DNA of 64,000 nucleotides, taken from contig NZ_PGFA01000001.1 in NCBI RefSeq assembly GCF_002797555.1, positions 1,736,001 through 1,800,000 on the forward strand, written 5' to 3'. A model generated the notes under the pieces. It was not told the origin of the DNA, did not search any database, and worked only from the letters and a program-made list of their open reading frames with translations. This document shows positions 10,617 through 56,208 of this stretch, piece by piece. The DNA comes from Hymenobacter chitinivorans DSM 11115. GTDB taxonomy: Bacteria; Bacteroidota; Bacteroidia; Cytophagales; Hymenobacteraceae. Within the stretch, counting starts at the first letter, position 1. Each line of letters opens with the position of its first letter. The position numbers and the translations under genes are program-made.

Positions 10617-10940
10617 GAAAACCGCGGTGGGCCTTCCAGGAGTCGGAATAAGGCTCTTCAAAACCTCGAAAGACCATCCAGAACTCTGCCAGACCCTCCC
10701 GAAAACTTCGGTGGCCTCTCCAGAACTCTGCTAGGCCCTCCCGAAAACTCCGGCCGGCCTTCCAGAACTCTGCCAGGCCCTCATGAAAACTTCGGTGGGC
10801 CTTCCAGAACTCTGCCGGGCCTTCGTGAAAACTTTGGTGGGTATTTCAGAACTCTGGAGAGTGCCCGTGAAAACTTCGGTGGCATCTCCAGAACTCTGCC
10901 AGGTCCTGCCGAAAACCTGGCAGAGCTAGACAGGGCCCGG
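10617..10940. repeat. Tandem array 1: about 7.7 copies of a 42-bp unit
   Basis: The hexamer GAAAAC (or one-base variant CAAAAC) starts at 10617, 10659, 10701, 10743, 10785, 10827, 10869 and 10911, exactly every 42 bases with no indel. The unit begins GAAAACTTCGGTGGGCCTTC and continues CAGAACTCTGCCAGGCCCTCCC-like; GGGCC...GGCCC within a unit can form a small hairpin. Because 42 is divisible by 3, long open frames cross the array, but their translations are 14-residue low-complexity repeats without a credible start, so I treat it as non-coding. There are no unique spacers, so it is not a CRISPR array. It fills most of the 10559-11055 gap. Confidence 0.93.
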
Positions 10941-12566: not shown

Positions 12567-12934
12567 AGTAGCGGGGTAACGGATACGTACTGAAGGCAAT
12601 ACAACGACACGAATCTTCCTCGGGCTGGCTAAAGTACCAGTCTGCCTACTAGCAGACAATAAGTGGCCCCGCGCTTTTACCAAAACCCCACACAACGTTT
12701 CCCGGCTACCCCGCGCTTTCCGCAACGACCCAGGAAATGTTTCCCAGATACCCCGACGTTTGGCGAAGTACCCGCGAAACGTTTCCCGAGCGGGGTGCTG
12801 TTTTTCCGATAACCAACATAAGCTTACCCGAATACCCCGACGTTTTTCGGAGTACCCGGGTAAGCTAAAGTAGCCCGGCGGGCTTCAGGTAGGGCGGTGC
12901 GGCACCGGGTAGTCAGTGCCCGACCTTGCGGCAC
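12567..12934. other. Intergenic region upstream of acyltransferase, holding array 2
   Basis: The gap contains the 42-bp array listed separately (12655-12864). The remaining short flanks on each side would have to hold the acyltransferase promoter (12567-12654) and the end of the VOC transcript (12865-12934). I see no gene or terminator in them. Confidence 0.5.
12655..12864. repeat. Tandem array 2: five degenerate copies of a 42-bp unit
   Basis: GTTTCCC begins at 12697, 12739 and 12781. The internal word TACCCCG recurs with the same phase at 12707, 12749 and 12833 (the last being two periods on), and CCCCGCGCTTT recurs at 12667 and 12709. This fixes a 42-bp period over five units, the third being the most diverged. 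Unit junctions read GAAACGTTTCCC, a near-palindrome. No credible protein is encoded. Confidence 0.85.
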
Positions 12935-14124: not shown

Positions 14125-14635
14125 AGCGGGGGCAGGGGCACACCCCGGGTTCAGGGTGCCAAGGCGCAAAAGTAAGCAGGACCTTTCGACCCCCGAGCCC
14201 CAGCTATTCCCAGCCCGCCTTTAATACAGCAGGGGAGGTGCGCCCTCATCGTAGGGCTGGCCCCAGGTTTCGCGGCAGGCTGCGCCACCCATTCCGGAGC
14301 CCCCGAAGTTTCCAGGTCAGCCCAGCACACCTGTTCCGGACCACCCTAACTTTCTCGGATGCCCCAGAACAGGTGTGCTAGGCCATCCTAACTTTCTAGG
14401 TCGGTCCGGAACACCTGTGCCGGGGCACCCGAAGTTTCTCGACCGGTCCGGGACAAGTGTAGTGAGGCATCCGAAGTTTCTAGGCCGGTCTGGAAAGACT
14501 GTAGCGGACCACCCTGACTTTCTCGGGTGCCCCGCTACACTTGTGGCGAAGGATGCCAGGTTTCTCGGGTATTCCCTCATTGGCGTGGGCTGCCAAACGC
14601 GCGCCGGTGAGGGCTATGCAGATGAGTAGCTGCTA
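14125..14635. other. Intergenic region holding array 3
   Basis: Between the regulator start and the next gene the only structured feature is the 42-bp array (14305-14598). The segment 14125-14300 should contain the promoter of the regulator but shows no clear -33/-7 pair. Confidence 0.5.
14305..14598. repeat. Tandem array 3: seven copies of a 42-bp unit
   Basis: The anchor word (GAAGTTTC/TAACTTTC and relatives) begins at 14305, 14347, 14389, 14431, 14473, 14515 and 14557, exactly 42 bases apart. The unit reads GAAGTTTCTCGGCCGGTCCG followed by GAACACCTGTGCCGGGGCACCC-like sequence, and can be aligned with array 1 (GAAC.C.TG.CC.GG.C..CCCGAA). Both strands are open through it for 84-87 codons with 14-residue repeats, which I read as a by-product of the period. 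Confidence 0.9.
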
Positions 14636-17980: not shown

Positions 17981-18429
17981 GCTGGGGTGGTTGAAAGGAA
18001 GGATGGGGCCCAAGTAACGACTTTTTCCTGCGTAGCACAGCTTGGGAAGGGCCGCGTTATGGCCGGCGGCAGTGTAGCGGGCGGTGCCTGCTGCATTTCG
18101 GCCGCCGGCCAAAGGGGCACAAGATAGTCCCCACGCGTCCCTGGACTGTCGCAGCCGTGGTAGTATCTGTCGCACGCCGATCCAAGCCTCTCGCACGCCG
18201 ATCCAAGCCTCTGGCACGGCCGTCACGCTCGTCGCACGGCTGACACAGGTCGTCGCACGGGTGTCACGGGGTGTCGCACGCGCGTCACGGCCCTTCGCAC
18301 GCGCGTCACGGGGCGTCGCACGGCCGACCATCCCTCTCGCACGCTCGCCGTAGCTCGTCGCGCGCCTGATGCAGGTTGTCGCACCCGGCGGCTTGCGTAT
18401 ATTGGCGGCTTCTGCTACTTCCTTTGCTT
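17981..18429. other. Divergent intergenic region with a 21-bp phased array
   Basis: The gap separates the divergent DUF5713 and lactonase-like genes. Its lactonase-proximal half is occupied by a 21-bp tandem array (18149-18399). Nothing distinctive is visible in 17981-18148. Confidence 0.55.
18149..18399. repeat. Tandem array 4: twelve copies of a 21-bp unit
   Basis: TCGCAC (or one-base variants TCGCAG, TGGCAC, TCGCGC) starts at 18149, 18170, 18191, 18212, 18232, 18253, 18274, 18295, 18316, 18337, 18358 and 18379. All steps are 21 bases except one of 20. Within many units a related CGTCACG follows at about +10, giving a roughly 10.5-base sub-period. The array ends 31 bases before the lactonase start, so it overlaps its promoter zone. 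Confidence 0.93.
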
Positions 18430-26821: not shown

Positions 26822-26912
26822 TCAGGATTAGATGTTGATTGTCAATTGTTGATTGTTAGTAGCTGATACAGTTCTTCTGACAACTAACAACGAGCAACTA
26901 CCAACTACCAAC
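26822..26912. repeat. Short-word inverted repeat (TTGATTGT / ACAACTA type)
   Basis: The gap consists of degenerate copies of TTGATTGT/ATTGTTGATTGTTAG on the left and the complementary words TGACAACTAACAAC and CAACTACCAACTACC on the right. It resembles the clearer GACAACT element at 29236-29317. I see no gene. Confidence 0.55.
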
Positions 26913-27515
26913 TTAAGTGGTGGCCCAGGCCCGGTCGCCTTTTTTGTAGGGCACGCAGCCGTCGTATTTGCCGGGCACGGGCAGGTAGCGCAGGGCCTTG
27001 GTGGCTCCCACTTCGGAAGTGAAATAGCCCAGCAAGGTCAGCTCCTTGAGCATACGGAAGTAGTGGTTGGGCGCTTCCAGGGTCTTGGTTTTGCTGTACT
27101 GCTTTTGCTCGGCATCCAGGGCCGTGAGCAGGGCCGTGCGCTGCTCCGGGGTGCTTTCCAGGAAGCCTTTGCCGTTTTTCTGCTTGCTGGCCTGCTCGAG
27201 TTTCGTCAGGCCCTGCAGGAAAATCTGCTGGTCGGCGGGCTTGTAGCAGTCTTTTACCATAACGGCCATGAACGAGCCCACGTCGGCGGCTTTGGCCCCG
27301 GGCGTTGTGGTGGTGGGCAGGATGGTTTCCCCGACTTCGTTCAGGTAAGCCACCTGGTCCGGACTCAGCAAGGGCTTTTCCTTTTTGACGGCCGCCGTGG
27401 CCTTCTGGTCCTTTTCTTCGGCGGGCGAGGAGCAGCTGCTCAAAAAATACTCGCCGCCGATAAGCGTGCCGCCCATGATAATAGCTACCCGGGCCAGGGC
27501 GTCTCTTCTGTTCAT
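26913..27515 (-). CDS. Gluconate 2-dehydrogenase subunit 3 family lipoprotein
   Basis: The 200-residue protein carries a twin-arginine leader (MNRRDALARVAIIMGG) and a lipobox (YFLSSC). The mature part matches the gluconate_2-dh3 family: LSPDQVAYLNEVGETILPTTTTPGAKAADVGSF is the characteristic core, and the C-terminus ends with LTLLGYFTSEVGATKALRYLPVPGKYDGC. This small subunit is required for export and function of the partner GMC dehydrogenase, which it precedes by 11 bases in transcription order after the GMC gene. Together they form a periplasmic membrane-bound glycoside dehydrogenase. Confidence 0.92.
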   Translation of the reverse strand: MNRRDALARVAIIMGGTLIGGEYFLSSCSSPAEEKDQKATAAVKKEKPLLSPDQVAYLNEVGETILPTTTTPGAKAADVGSFMAVMVKDCYKPADQQIFLQGLTKLEQASKQKNGKGFLESTPEQRTALLTALDAEQKQYSKTKTLEAPNHYFRMLKELTLLGYFTSEVGATKALRYLPVPGKYDGCVPYKKGDRAWATT

Positions 27516-29235: not shown

Positions 29236-29317
29236 AGTTGTCAGTTGCTGGTTGTCAGTTGTTAGGTCGTTCTAACTTTCTTATTTACTGACAACTGACA
29301 ACTGACAACTGACAACT
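29236..29317. repeat. GACAACT tandem/inverted short repeat
   Basis: Four perfect head-to-tail copies of the 7-mer GACAACT lie at 29290-29317, and their complement AGTTGTC/GTTGTCAG appears at 29236-29262. The two arms can pair into a hairpin. The right array overlaps the stop codon of the following gene (TAG at 29318-29316), so the repeat sits directly at a gene end. Confidence 0.8.
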
Positions 29318-47891: not shown

Positions 47892-48230
47892 ATGGAAAAA
47901 TCAACGTACTACAACCCCGCCGACTTGGCCAAATTTGGTAATATCTCGGAGTGGCAGCCCGAAATGGGCCGCAAGTTCTTCGAGTACTACGGTGAAGTAT
48001 TCAAGGAAGGCGCCCTGACCGAGCGGGAAAAAGCCCTCATTGCCCTGGCCGTGGCCCACGCCGTGCAGTGCCCCTACTGCATTGATGCCTACACTTCCGA
48101 CTCCCTGCAAAAAGGCGCCGACGAAGCTCAGATGATGGAAGCTGTGCACGTAGCCGCGGCCATCAAAGGCGGCGCCGCCTTGGTCCACGGCGTGCAAATG
48201 ATGAACAAAGCCAAGGAATTGTCTATGTAA
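47892..48230 (+). CDS. Arsenosugar biosynthesis-associated AhpD/CMD-like protein
   Basis: The 112-residue product is a carboxymuconolactone decarboxylase-fold protein with the AhpD-type CxxC motif (Cys60-Cys63 in HAVQCPYCIDAYT). Its whole sequence (TYYNPADLAKFGNISEWQPE, KGADEAQMMEAVHVAAAIKGG, HGVQMMNKAKELSM) matches the subfamily that accompanies the radical-SAM enzyme ArsS in arsenosugar clusters. ArsS itself is not in this window. A rhodanese gene, often seen with such clusters, follows 300 bases later behind a hairpin repeat. Confidence 0.88.
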   Translation: MEKSTYYNPADLAKFGNISEWQPEMGRKFFEYYGEVFKEGALTEREKALIALAVAHAVQCPYCIDAYTSDSLQKGADEAQMMEAVHVAAAIKGGAALVHGVQMMNKAKELSM

Positions 48231-48497
48231 TGTGCTGATGTGCTAATGTTTAATGTGGCTGAATGTGGCTGAATGTGAGAAATATGTCCTTGCGAGCTTG
48301 CGAAGCCATCCGTCCTCTGAAATGTGCTGGATTCTCTTGCCTGACGAGCCTTGGCGTGTAATGACGAAAAGGGCTTTCTGATAAAAGGGCGTGGCTACCT
48401 GGGCAGTGGACGGCTGCCTTCGTCGTGCCTTTTGGCAAAGACACATTTCCCCACATTCTGCACATTCAGCCACATTAAACATTAGCACATCAGCACA
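48231..48497. repeat. Hairpin element family B, copy 2
   Basis: A perfect 37-bp inverted repeat (48231-48267 against 48461-48497) made of AATGTG/TGCTAATG-like words encloses the same core as copy 1: CTTGCGAGCTTGCGAAGCCA, CCGTCCTCTGAAATGTGCTG and GGGCTTTCTGATAAAAGGGC. The left arm begins on the base immediately after the stop codon of the AhpD-like gene. The core is conserved between copies but the arm sequences are not, while complementarity within each is perfect. Confidence 0.88.
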
Positions 48498-48532
48498 TTC
48501 CAACACATTAGCACATTAACCCTTGGTGTGAA

Positions 48533-53302: not shown

Positions 53303-53306
53303 GTTG

Positions 53307-53873
53307 ATGGGAGCTTTACTGACCGACCTGCTGCAGCGCGCCCAGCGCAGCCGCCGCGTAGTGGCCGTGCAAACTGGCGGCCCCATGTTTCTGGGCTACG
53401 TGCTGAGTCACAACGCCGAGTTGCTGCTCTTGCGCACTCTTACCCGCCAGGGTTTGCCCACCGGTGTCCAGACCCTGAGCATGCAGACCGTGACCCAGGT
53501 GCACTTTGACGACCGGTACGTGCGCCTGATTGAGTTCAAGGAGCACAACCCCGAGGTGGTGTACGGCCTGCCGGCCGCCCCCGACGGCATCAGCAACGAC
53601 GACCTTAGCGTGGCGGCCCTGCTGCAGAAAGCCCACGAAACCCACCAGCTGCTCCAGCTCGAAACCTATGCCGACACCACTTTCTACGGCTACGTGGCCC
53701 GCCTCACCGAAGACGAGCTGCTGCTGGAAGTCTACACCCAGTTTGCCGAGGCCGACGGCCACAGCGTGATGGACGTGGACAGCATCCGCAGCGTGGTGTG
53801 GAGCAACGAGGATACGCGCACCATCGAGCTGCTGCGCAAGCAGCCGGGGGCGTTGAGCAAGGGCGCGGAATAA
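53307..53873 (+). CDS. Protein with two similar, possibly Sm-like, halves
   Basis: I do not recognise this 188-residue protein. Its halves look alike: GPMFLGYVLSHNAELLLLRTL...SMQTVTQVHFDDRYVRLIEF (about residues 25-75) and TTFYGYVARLTEDELLLEVYT...MDVDSIRSVVWSNEDTRTIELL (about 122-175). Each has a GYV strand followed by a turn, a run of leucines and then a final 'V..V' strand pair, which is reminiscent of an Sm/LSm or SH3-like barrel. It follows the peroxiredoxin by 4 bases. Function unknown. Confidence 0.7.
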   Translation: MGALLTDLLQRAQRSRRVVAVQTGGPMFLGYVLSHNAELLLLRTLTRQGLPTGVQTLSMQTVTQVHFDDRYVRLIEFKEHNPEVVYGLPAAPDGISNDDLSVAALLQKAHETHQLLQLETYADTTFYGYVARLTEDELLLEVYTQFAEADGHSVMDVDSIRSVVWSNEDTRTIELLRKQPGALSKGAE

Positions 53874-53918
53874 GCAATTTTATGGCCCGCAGGTAGCCAA
53901 GCGGGCTAGTGAATACCG

Positions 53919-53932: not shown

Positions 53933-55133
53933 ATGACGCTTGCGCTGCTGCTGCCCACCCTGATTTTATTGCTTCTGCTGAGCCGGCCCGCCGTGACCTT
54001 GGTGCACGAACTGGGACACGCTGTAGTGGGCCGGCTGCTCGGGGGCGGTCCAGTCCAGGTTTTTGCGGGCTCCCACGGCAACCAGGACCGTAGCTTCCGG
54101 TTGCCGCTGGGCCGCGCCGCTGGGCCGCACGTCCGGGCTGTATATTATTCGTAACCCGTTGAAGTGGTCGGGGGGGCTGTGCGAATTTACTTACCCGCTG
54201 TCCGGCTCCCGGCGGGTGCTAATGTTGCTGGCCGGCCCTCTGTTGCCGGCCGTGGTGGCGGCCGGGCTGGCATGGCTCGTATTTCACACCGCAACGAATG
54301 ATCTGTGGCGCATGGCCAGTATTGCCTTCGTAGTGGGCACTGGGCTGTCATTGGTCCTGAACCTGGTGCCTAGCTCCACACCGGTGGCCTTGGCCAATGG
54401 CTCGACTACGCATACCGACGGGACGCTGCTGCGTTCCGCCTGGCTTCTGCGGCATTACTCTTTGGCGCACCAAGCAGCCCTGGCCGACTACCAGGCCGGT
54501 AAGTATGACGCAGCGGTCCGGGGGCTGCGGCCCTTTCTGGCCAGCCGGCGCCACCAATCCGACACAATTAGCATGGTGGTGTCGGCCTTGGTAATAACTA
54601 AGGAGTGCGACCAGGCCCGCCAGATACTAACCACCTACCGCGCCCAGTATCAGCCCACCAGTAATGGCTGGGTTAATGAAGGCGTATTGCACGCGCACTT
54701 CAACGAGTTGGACGCCGCTTTTGCCTGCTATGAGCAAGCCCTGCAACTGGACCCGGCCAACTCCTTTGCCCTCAACAACCGCGGCTACACCCACAACCGG
54801 GCCGGCCAGTACGCGCAGGCCGTGCCCGATTTTCGTCGGGCTCTGGAGCTCAATCCGGGCTTTGCTTACGCCCACGCCAACCTGGGCCTGGCCCTGCTGA
54901 TGCTGGGCGAAACCGATGAGGGCCTGGGCCACGTGCGCTACTCCCTGCGCCTCGACGACCAGAACGCCTACGCTTACCGCAACCTGGGCATCTACCATCT
55001 GCAGCGCGGGGAGTTGGAAGAGGCCCGCCGGCAACTCGACCGGGCCTGGGAGCTTGATCCGCACACCGATTTACTGGCCGACTACCGGGCCCAGCTGCAA
55101 AGCCGCTTCGACGGGAAACCTCCGTCCAACTAG
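53933..55133 (+). pseudogene. M50-type site-2 protease/TPR membrane protein, broken by a 13-bp tandem duplication
   Basis: The reading frame starts at the ATG at 53933 (MTLALLLPTLILLLLLS), contains HELGH (residues 25-29, the M50 zinc motif) and runs to a stop at 54154. The remainder is found in another frame to 55133: LYIIRNPLKWSGGLCEFTY, hydrophobic helices, then three or four TPR motifs (LDAAFACYEQALQLDPANSFALNNRGYTHNRAGQYAQAV). The break is explained exactly by GCCGCTGGGCCGC repeated in tandem at 54103-54115 and 54116-54128; deletion of one copy fuses the two frames as LPLGRTSGLYIIRN. The gene is thus disrupted, or phase-variable, or misassembled. Confidence 0.88.
54103..54128. repeat. 13-bp perfect tandem duplication inside the M50/TPR gene
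   Basis: GCCGCTGGGCCGC occurs twice head-to-tail. Its length is not a multiple of three, so it shifts the frame by +1. This is the sole cause of the frame break in the surrounding gene. Confidence 0.95.
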
Positions 55134-55218: not shown

Positions 55219-56208
55219 ATGTTTCGCTTTCTGTCTGTACTACTGCTGGCCCTGCTGCTCTCGCGGCCCGGCTCGGCCCAAAATACCGTCCTCAACGCCA
55301 CGCTCGACGGCTACGAGTATCCGTTTCCGGTCAAGTACCTGCCCCTGAAGCTCGAAGGCCAGGCCCTGCGCATGGCCTACATGGACGTGCCGGCCACTAC
55401 TAAAGCCAACGGCCGTACCGTCGTGCTGCTGCACGGCAAAAACTTTTTCGGGGCCTACTGGCGCGAGACCATTAAGGCGCTGACGGGGGCGGGCTTCCGG
55501 GTGGTGGTGCCCGACCAGGTGGGCTTCGGCAAGTCCGACAAGCCGGATCTGCACTACTCCTTTCACCAATTAGCCCGCAACACCAAGCATTTGCTCGACA
55601 CGCTGGGCGTGCCAAAGGCCGTGGTCGTGGGTCACAGCATGGGCGGTATGCTGGCCACCCGCTTTGCGTTGCTCTACCCCGAAGCCACCGAAAAGCTGGT
55701 GCTCGAAAACCCCATCGGCTTGGAAGATTACCGCGTCGGCGTGCCATTCCAGACCATTGACCAAGCCGAGGCCACCGAGCGCAGAAGCACCGAGGCAAGC
55801 ATCCGCAAGTACCACGCTACCTATTACCCCAACGGCTACCCCCAGGCCCACGACGAGTGGCTGTTGCCGCTGGCGGCCCAAACCAAAAGCCCGGACTTCC
55901 CAAAAGTGGCCCGGGCCAATGCCCTGACCTTTGACATGATTTACCAGCAGCCGGTGGCGTACGAGTTCAGCCGGGTGCAGGCTCCCACGCTGCTCATCAT
56001 CGGGCAGGCCGACCGCACGGTGGTGGGTAAAAAGCTGATTAAGAACCCGAAAGTGCTGGCCGCCATGGGGCAGTACCCCGCGCTGGGCCGGCGCACCGCC
56101 GCCCAGATCAAAGGCGCCAAGCTGGTGGAGCTGGACAAGGTGGGCCACATTCCGCATCTGGAGGCCTTTGCCAAATTCCGGGAAGCCCTGCTGGCCTTTG
56201 TGAAGTAA
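55219..56208 (+). CDS. Secreted alpha/beta hydrolase
   Basis: The 329-residue product has a signal peptide (MFRFLSVLLLALLLSRPGSAQ) and an alpha/beta-hydrolase domain. The oxyanion region is VVLLHGKNFFG, the nucleophile elbow VVVGHSMGGMLA, and the acid and His appear in LLIIGQADRTVVG and VGHIPHLEAFAKF. The sequence is similar to haloalkane dehalogenase/epoxide hydrolase-like and esterase proteins; the substrate is unknown. It is monocistronic and convergent with the SUMF1 lipoprotein operon. Confidence 0.9.
   Translation: MFRFLSVLLLALLLSRPGSAQNTVLNATLDGYEYPFPVKYLPLKLEGQALRMAYMDVPATTKANGRTVVLLHGKNFFGAYWRETIKALTGAGFRVVVPDQVGFGKSDKPDLHYSFHQLARNTKHLLDTLGVPKAVVVGHSMGGMLATRFALLYPEATEKLVLENPIGLEDYRVGVPFQTIDQAEATERRSTEASIRKYHATYYPNGYPQAHDEWLLPLAAQTKSPDFPKVARANALTFDMIYQQPVAYEFSRVQAPTLLIIGQADRTVVGKKLIKNPKVLAAMGQYPALGRRTAAQIKGAKLVELDKVGHIPHLEAFAKFREALLAFVK

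Follow-up and report, generated by a model that had tools for sequence, protein, structure and literature searches.

In the genome of Hymenobacter chitinivorans DSM 11115, an exact 13-bp tandem duplication breaks a gene (53933-55133) that would encode a TPR-bearing membrane protein similar to M50 site-2 proteases. This very probably reflects a recent and ordinary loss of function, caused by a spontaneous duplication inside an accessory gene. Positions are those of the window, i.e., the whole stretch of DNA analyzed here, which comprises 64,000 nucleotides (contig 1, 1736001-1800000); the genome measures 5.87 Mb and is assembled into 7 contigs. The loss of function, its recency and the lack of a switching role are what we infer from the analyses below, rather than direct observations.

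The duplication consists of two exact head-to-tail copies of GCCGCTGGGCCGC on the forward strand, located at 54103-54115 and 54116-54128, respectively. Tandem Repeats Finder assigned the pair a period of 13, 2.0 copies and a match of 100%, and alignment to three homologues showed that the pair amounts to 13 extra bases. The period is broken on either side of the pair by T54102 and A54129, and flanking microhomology is therefore absent. On the basis of base composition, approximately 0.011 exact period-13 duplications are expected per 460-kb block, which scales to about 0.0015 in 64 kb, so that the GCCGCTGGGCCGC duplication is no chance event.

The two halves of the gene lie in different frames around the GCCGCTGGGCCGC pair. 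According to the list of open reading frames (ORFs), the upstream frame from the ATG at 53933 stops at 54152-54154, and the downstream frame is open across the duplication site to 55133 with no further stop; the two overlap at 54063-54154. The 5' piece (53933..54154, forward strand) would encode 73 aa from ATG 53933, comprising the first helix with the HELGH motif, the first strands and a short out-of-frame tail ending at the stop. Although the ORF list gives this piece from a GTG at 53909, the ATG start at 53933 fits the MTLGLLL of the H. metallicola protein. When compared with Peptidase_M50B, the 5' piece gave an E value of 4.9e-4, under the Pfam cut-off. The 3' piece (54129..55133, forward strand) holds the remaining membrane protease core (GLC, LAGP and TDG) and the TPR repeats. 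Since HELGH and GLC/TDG of the window's own gene are on different frames, the whole active site is not on one chain. Both neighbours, which served as synteny flanks, are intact and conserved: a 189-codon ORF without an NCBIfam match upstream (53304..53873, forward strand) and an alpha/beta-hydrolase-like gene downstream (55219..56208, forward strand). The preliminary description of this DNA had reported an exact 13-bp duplication at 54103-54128 and a HELGH-containing membrane protease/TPR gene with its halves in different frames; the window letters and the ORF frames around the site confirm both.

Three of the ten further genomes of the genus that encode a full-length homologue, namely H. metallicola, H. 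telluris and G014, were aligned with the site at the DNA level. Each of them showed a 13-column gap at the duplication, and therefore one copy of GCCGCTGGGCCGC, either one, is the derived insertion. No repeated unit was present at the site in any of these three relatives. A single frame encodes the protein in H. metallicola, where it has 395 aa, and in H. telluris, where it has 401 aa. Full-length homologues were detected in 11 genomes of the genus, and in nine of these one frame runs from HExxH to the TPRs, the exceptions being this genome and G014. Thus, the intact form that had been proposed to be sought in relatives does exist there, and the earlier claim that the duplication is the cause of the frame break appears well founded, as judged from relatives that are shorter by exactly 13 bases and from their open frames. 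A 96-base probe over the site gave a full match only in this genome among 120 and partial matches of 26-56 bases in eight others; since divergence keeps this probe from matching even the orthologue of H. metallicola (G039), it shows only the absence of a near-identical copy among the 120. The M50/TPR gene of G014 has frame breaks as well. We did not accept it as a second independent inactivation, given that the 17-kb locus of that genome (L058) shows single-base gaps against the window in eight of the nine compared genes, which is the mark of an error-rich assembly.

Intact homologues resemble M50 site-2-protease-like membrane proteins with C-terminal TPR repeats, as suggested by conserved residues and predicted models. 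In an alignment of 17 intact Bacteroidota homologues (17 of 21 loci; L089, L090, L094 and L095 were left out owing to an unclear start, odd length or partial sequence), H25, E26 and H29 of the HExxH motif, G77 and C79 (G-x-C) and D158 and G159 (D-G) were invariant in all 17, and N157 was nearly so. We take the aspartate of D158-G159 to be the third zinc ligand of the site-2 protease; the window gene carries TDG, matching the D-G motif. At E<=0.01, PF13398 was matched by 16 of the 17 homologues and PF02163 by 12. Among the three full-length proteins scanned against the PF13398 cut-off of 26, that of H. telluris scored above it (30.2) and those of Chryseolinea (22.7) and H. metallicola (19.1) below, and a PF13398 search of the window's own genome, broken gene included, gave no match. 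The TPR part strongly matched Pfam TPR families.

AlphaFold modelled the H. metallicola protein with a pLDDT of 92.2 (93.6 for its first 166 residues), and the first helix with HExxH spans residues 3-37 of the model. When the modelled core was compared with known structures, ranks 1-9 in VIA-align were RseP-type, RASP (presumably a site-2 protease), SpoIVFB and mjS2P structures with Z of 13.5-8.0, with rank 10 at 5.9; in Foldseek, ranks 1-9 were RseP, mjS2P and SpoIVFB, with a best E of 0.0019. In a profile search against solved structures, the best 60 of 389 matches were all repeat proteins, for the most part TPR, and hence the protease fold rests on models. The identification of the gene as an M50 protease joined to TPR repeats, already put forward from the letters, is upheld by the residues conserved in 17 homologues, the Pfam TPR matches and the modelled core. 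The break falls at about residue 60 of the H. metallicola model, between strands 54-58 and 64-68, that is, after HELGH and before G-x-C and D-G, and therefore neither piece can hold all conserved residues.

The M50/TPR gene is accessory, being patchy in the genus and absent from the nearest relative. The protein search found a full-length homologue in at least 11 of 120 genus genomes, possibly a lower bound as at most 18 initial candidates were scored in most genomes. Over 11 kb of syntenic DNA, compared at the DNA level only and with approximately 670 bases at the G046 site outside the examination, the gene was not found in seven of ten stretches, and G014 and G039 carry it at the window's position; in the seven genomes without it at synteny, only matches to the TPR part were present among the protein candidates scored. 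In a six-neighbour tree, this genome was sister to G015 (local support 0.98), which is without the gene, and G014 came next. Three further M50 genes over the Pfam cut-off are present in this genome.

Two observations concern the history of the gene in relatives. In H. telluris (L061, G112), an intact copy is located across the alpha/beta-hydrolase gene from the window's position, and the gene has therefore moved or been separately gained. Further, the G014 protein (L011) is only 53% identical to the product of window positions 54150-55130 vs. approximately 88% DNA identity of the neighbour genes, so the histories of the gene and its neighbours may differ between G014 and the window. Horizontal replacement was considered for this contrast and not retained: the gene tree grouped this genome with H. 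metallicola (81/88), yet a grouping of this genome with G014 was not rejected (p-AU 0.134).

With regard to age, approximately 3% of single changes in the downstream half would create a stop, and three stops would be expected at about 0.1 substitutions per site. As this half contains no other stop, the lesion is probably younger than approximately 0.1 substitutions per site; the uncorrected synonymous difference from H. metallicola is about 0.5. Pairwise dN/dS against H. metallicola was 0.19 for the first part of the gene and 0.29 for the second, compared to 0.07, 0.15 and 0.08 for three neighbours, indicating that the M50/TPR gene changes faster than these neighbours. Accelerated decay on this branch was rejected because two relative-rate tests disagree: the branch of this genome changed faster with G014 as the outgroup (36 v 18, p=0.02) but not with H. 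telluris (25 v 33, p=0.36).

In the course of events that we propose, a spontaneous 13-bp tandem duplication, without flanking repeats, would have arisen inside the accessory M50/TPR gene, either in nature or during laboratory culture. Because the length of the insert, 13, cannot be divided by three, translation would run out of frame past the first helix and then reach a stop, so that no protease would be made; the lineage may dispense with the gene, and the mutation would be an ordinary gene inactivation. Two routes by slippage were rejected. Slippage at flanking microhomology does not fit a period that stops at both edges of the GCCGCTGGGCCGC pair, and slippage between the GCCGC at the start and at the end of GCCGCTGGGCCGC would add 8 bp instead of 13.

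Several other explanations were weighed against loss of function by spontaneous duplication. An assembly or sequencing artefact, with one copy in the living strain, is quite unlikely. It would draw on the fact that this is a single assembly and on the example of G014, where an error-rich assembly fakes frame breaks. However, the usual sequencing error is a single-base change in a homopolymer, which an exact 13-base duplication does not resemble; the assembly has a completeness of 100 and a contamination of 0.21 in its 7 contigs; and in the comparison of this genome with G015, seven of nine neighbour genes were without any frame-breaking gap, the other two showing such gaps only near the ends of the alignments. 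The earlier judgement that sequencing error is the less likely option is thus likely right. We consider it extremely improbable that the 13 bp are the footprint of a mobile element, namely a target-site duplication whose element has since disappeared. In being exact and free of flanking microhomology, the pair does have the form of a target-site duplication, and some IS4-family elements generate duplications of about 13 bp, but nothing lies between the two GCCGCTGGGCCGC copies and the genome is without a match to DDE_Tnp_1 (PF01609), a family matched by nine of 14 control genomes. On this latter ground the footprint was rejected for that transposase family alone. Hardly credible, too, is the idea that both pieces are made and used, whether as a split protein, as a truncated TPR membrane protein or through a programmed frameshift. 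The overlap of the frames and the protein-like character of each piece would suit it, but the conserved residues fall on separate pieces, the 17 aligned homologues have a single frame, which speaks against conserved recoding or splitting, and the DNA fold at the site was no stronger than that of shuffled sequences (z 1.35); a programmed frameshift or split gene was rejected on the single frame and the lack of an unusual fold.

The preliminary description had also suggested that the gene may be an on/off switch. In a switch of this kind, cells would gain and lose a second 13-bp copy often enough to be of use, and the protease would go off and on accordingly. In principle, an exact two-copy repeat can be deleted precisely, and no other stop interrupts the remainder of the coding sequence. 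Both halves are also still protein-like by dN/dS, as expected if the gene were intact in most cells, which counts against a fixed loss, and duplications in Streptococcus pneumoniae capsule genes and tandem repeats of Mycobacterium tuberculosis are described as phase-variable. Nevertheless, the locus has only two copies, the three aligned relatives are without a repeated unit, the gene is often absent in the genus, including in G015, and no paper in the literature searched joined 'Hymenobacter' and 'phase variation'. Moreover, a survey of 1.26 Mb of this genome for units of 10-100 bases duplicated exactly in tandem gave 19 cases, the focal one included (two overlap in one array; cases no more than 180 bases from a block end were left out of the count), and none of the others is comparable to the focal one as an in-gene duplication. 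Seven of the 19 have a length that is not a multiple of three, and only the focal duplication among these is inside a gene by codon score, being coding-like on both sides, with a downstream score of 0.09 that is just under the threshold of 0.1 and led to the script class 'other'. None of the other six was coding-like on both sides within the 1.26 Mb surveyed of 5.87 Mb; a heptamer-based 14-mer duplication at C1:351529 of the same genome (G000) sits between two ORFs, one of which presumably resembles cysN. The switch therefore finds no support here, and we regard a reversible switch as very unlikely. We give slightly less credence again to a low-rate form, in which the two-copy duplication would genetically switch a site-2 protease fused to TPRs, the sequenced colony being in the off state; if true, contingency loci in Bacteroidota could consist of no more than a plain two-copy duplication.

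Other repeats were observed in the window and the genome. At 48228-48277 and 48451-48518, tandem repeats of the AATGTGGCTG type and inversely oriented repeats of the CACATTCAG type flank about 170 bases between two genes, an arrangement like that of a small inverted-repeat element with its two arms. Tandem arrays built on heptamers (GTTGTCA / CAACTAC / ACTGACA) occur at 26833-26913 and 29236-29317 of the window and at C1:351529, 1586039 and 1651672 of the genome. Tandem arrays with periods of 21 and 42 bases, mostly imperfect, are found at 10677-10916, 12687-12787, 14303-14525 and 18170-18344 of the window and at C1:87462 and 1409019.

For annotation, 53933-55133 is best treated as one frame-broken M50/TPR gene, not as two genes. 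Read as a spontaneous loss of function, the locus is of little importance and of use chiefly in annotation; it offers a clean case from nature of a repeat-free short tandem duplication, and the intact relatives point to a TPR-fused site-2-protease-like family in Bacteroidota.

Short tandem duplications that inactivate genes have been described elsewhere. In an Escherichia coli topA R168C mutant, head-to-tail duplications of 2-19 bp, independent of existing repeats, are frequent, and no duplications are reported for the topA+ lines; the same paper describes longer insertions without repeats as rare in the wild type (PMC6954433). The focal 13-bp duplication has the same form. However, the E. coli events are mutator-driven, whereas the Hymenobacter TopA keeps the equivalents of R35 and R168, the two arginines whose loss gave the E. 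coli mutators (position numbers derived by hand from the alignment), and no other in-gene case was seen in 1.26 Mb. A topA mutator was rejected on account of the intact arginines; these, together with the rarity in wild-type cells, also count against the proposed spontaneous duplication. In Xenorhabdus nematophila, tandem duplications were among spontaneous lrp mutations, and functional restoration of lrp was not observed (PMC6786866); these are likewise spontaneous loss-of-function mutations, but with units of 26-116 bp and selected in prolonged culture. Copy number of tandem repeats is reported to be phase-variable in M. tuberculosis (PMC12817950). For S. pneumoniae, PMC4243769 names reversible duplications within capsule genes as one reason why the capsule is lost or phase-variable, citing Waite 2001 and 2003. 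There, too, a duplication within an open reading frame breaks the gene, but it is described as reversible and of high frequency, and it affects a surface polysaccharide, with neither reversibility nor recurrence seen at the Hymenobacter locus. At the protein level, the Hymenobacter family shares with the M50 site-2 proteases RseP, SpoIVFB and mjS2P the HExxH in the first helix, a predicted membrane core and the conserved D-G; it differs from them in adding C-terminal TPR repeats and, in this genome, in being encoded by a broken gene.
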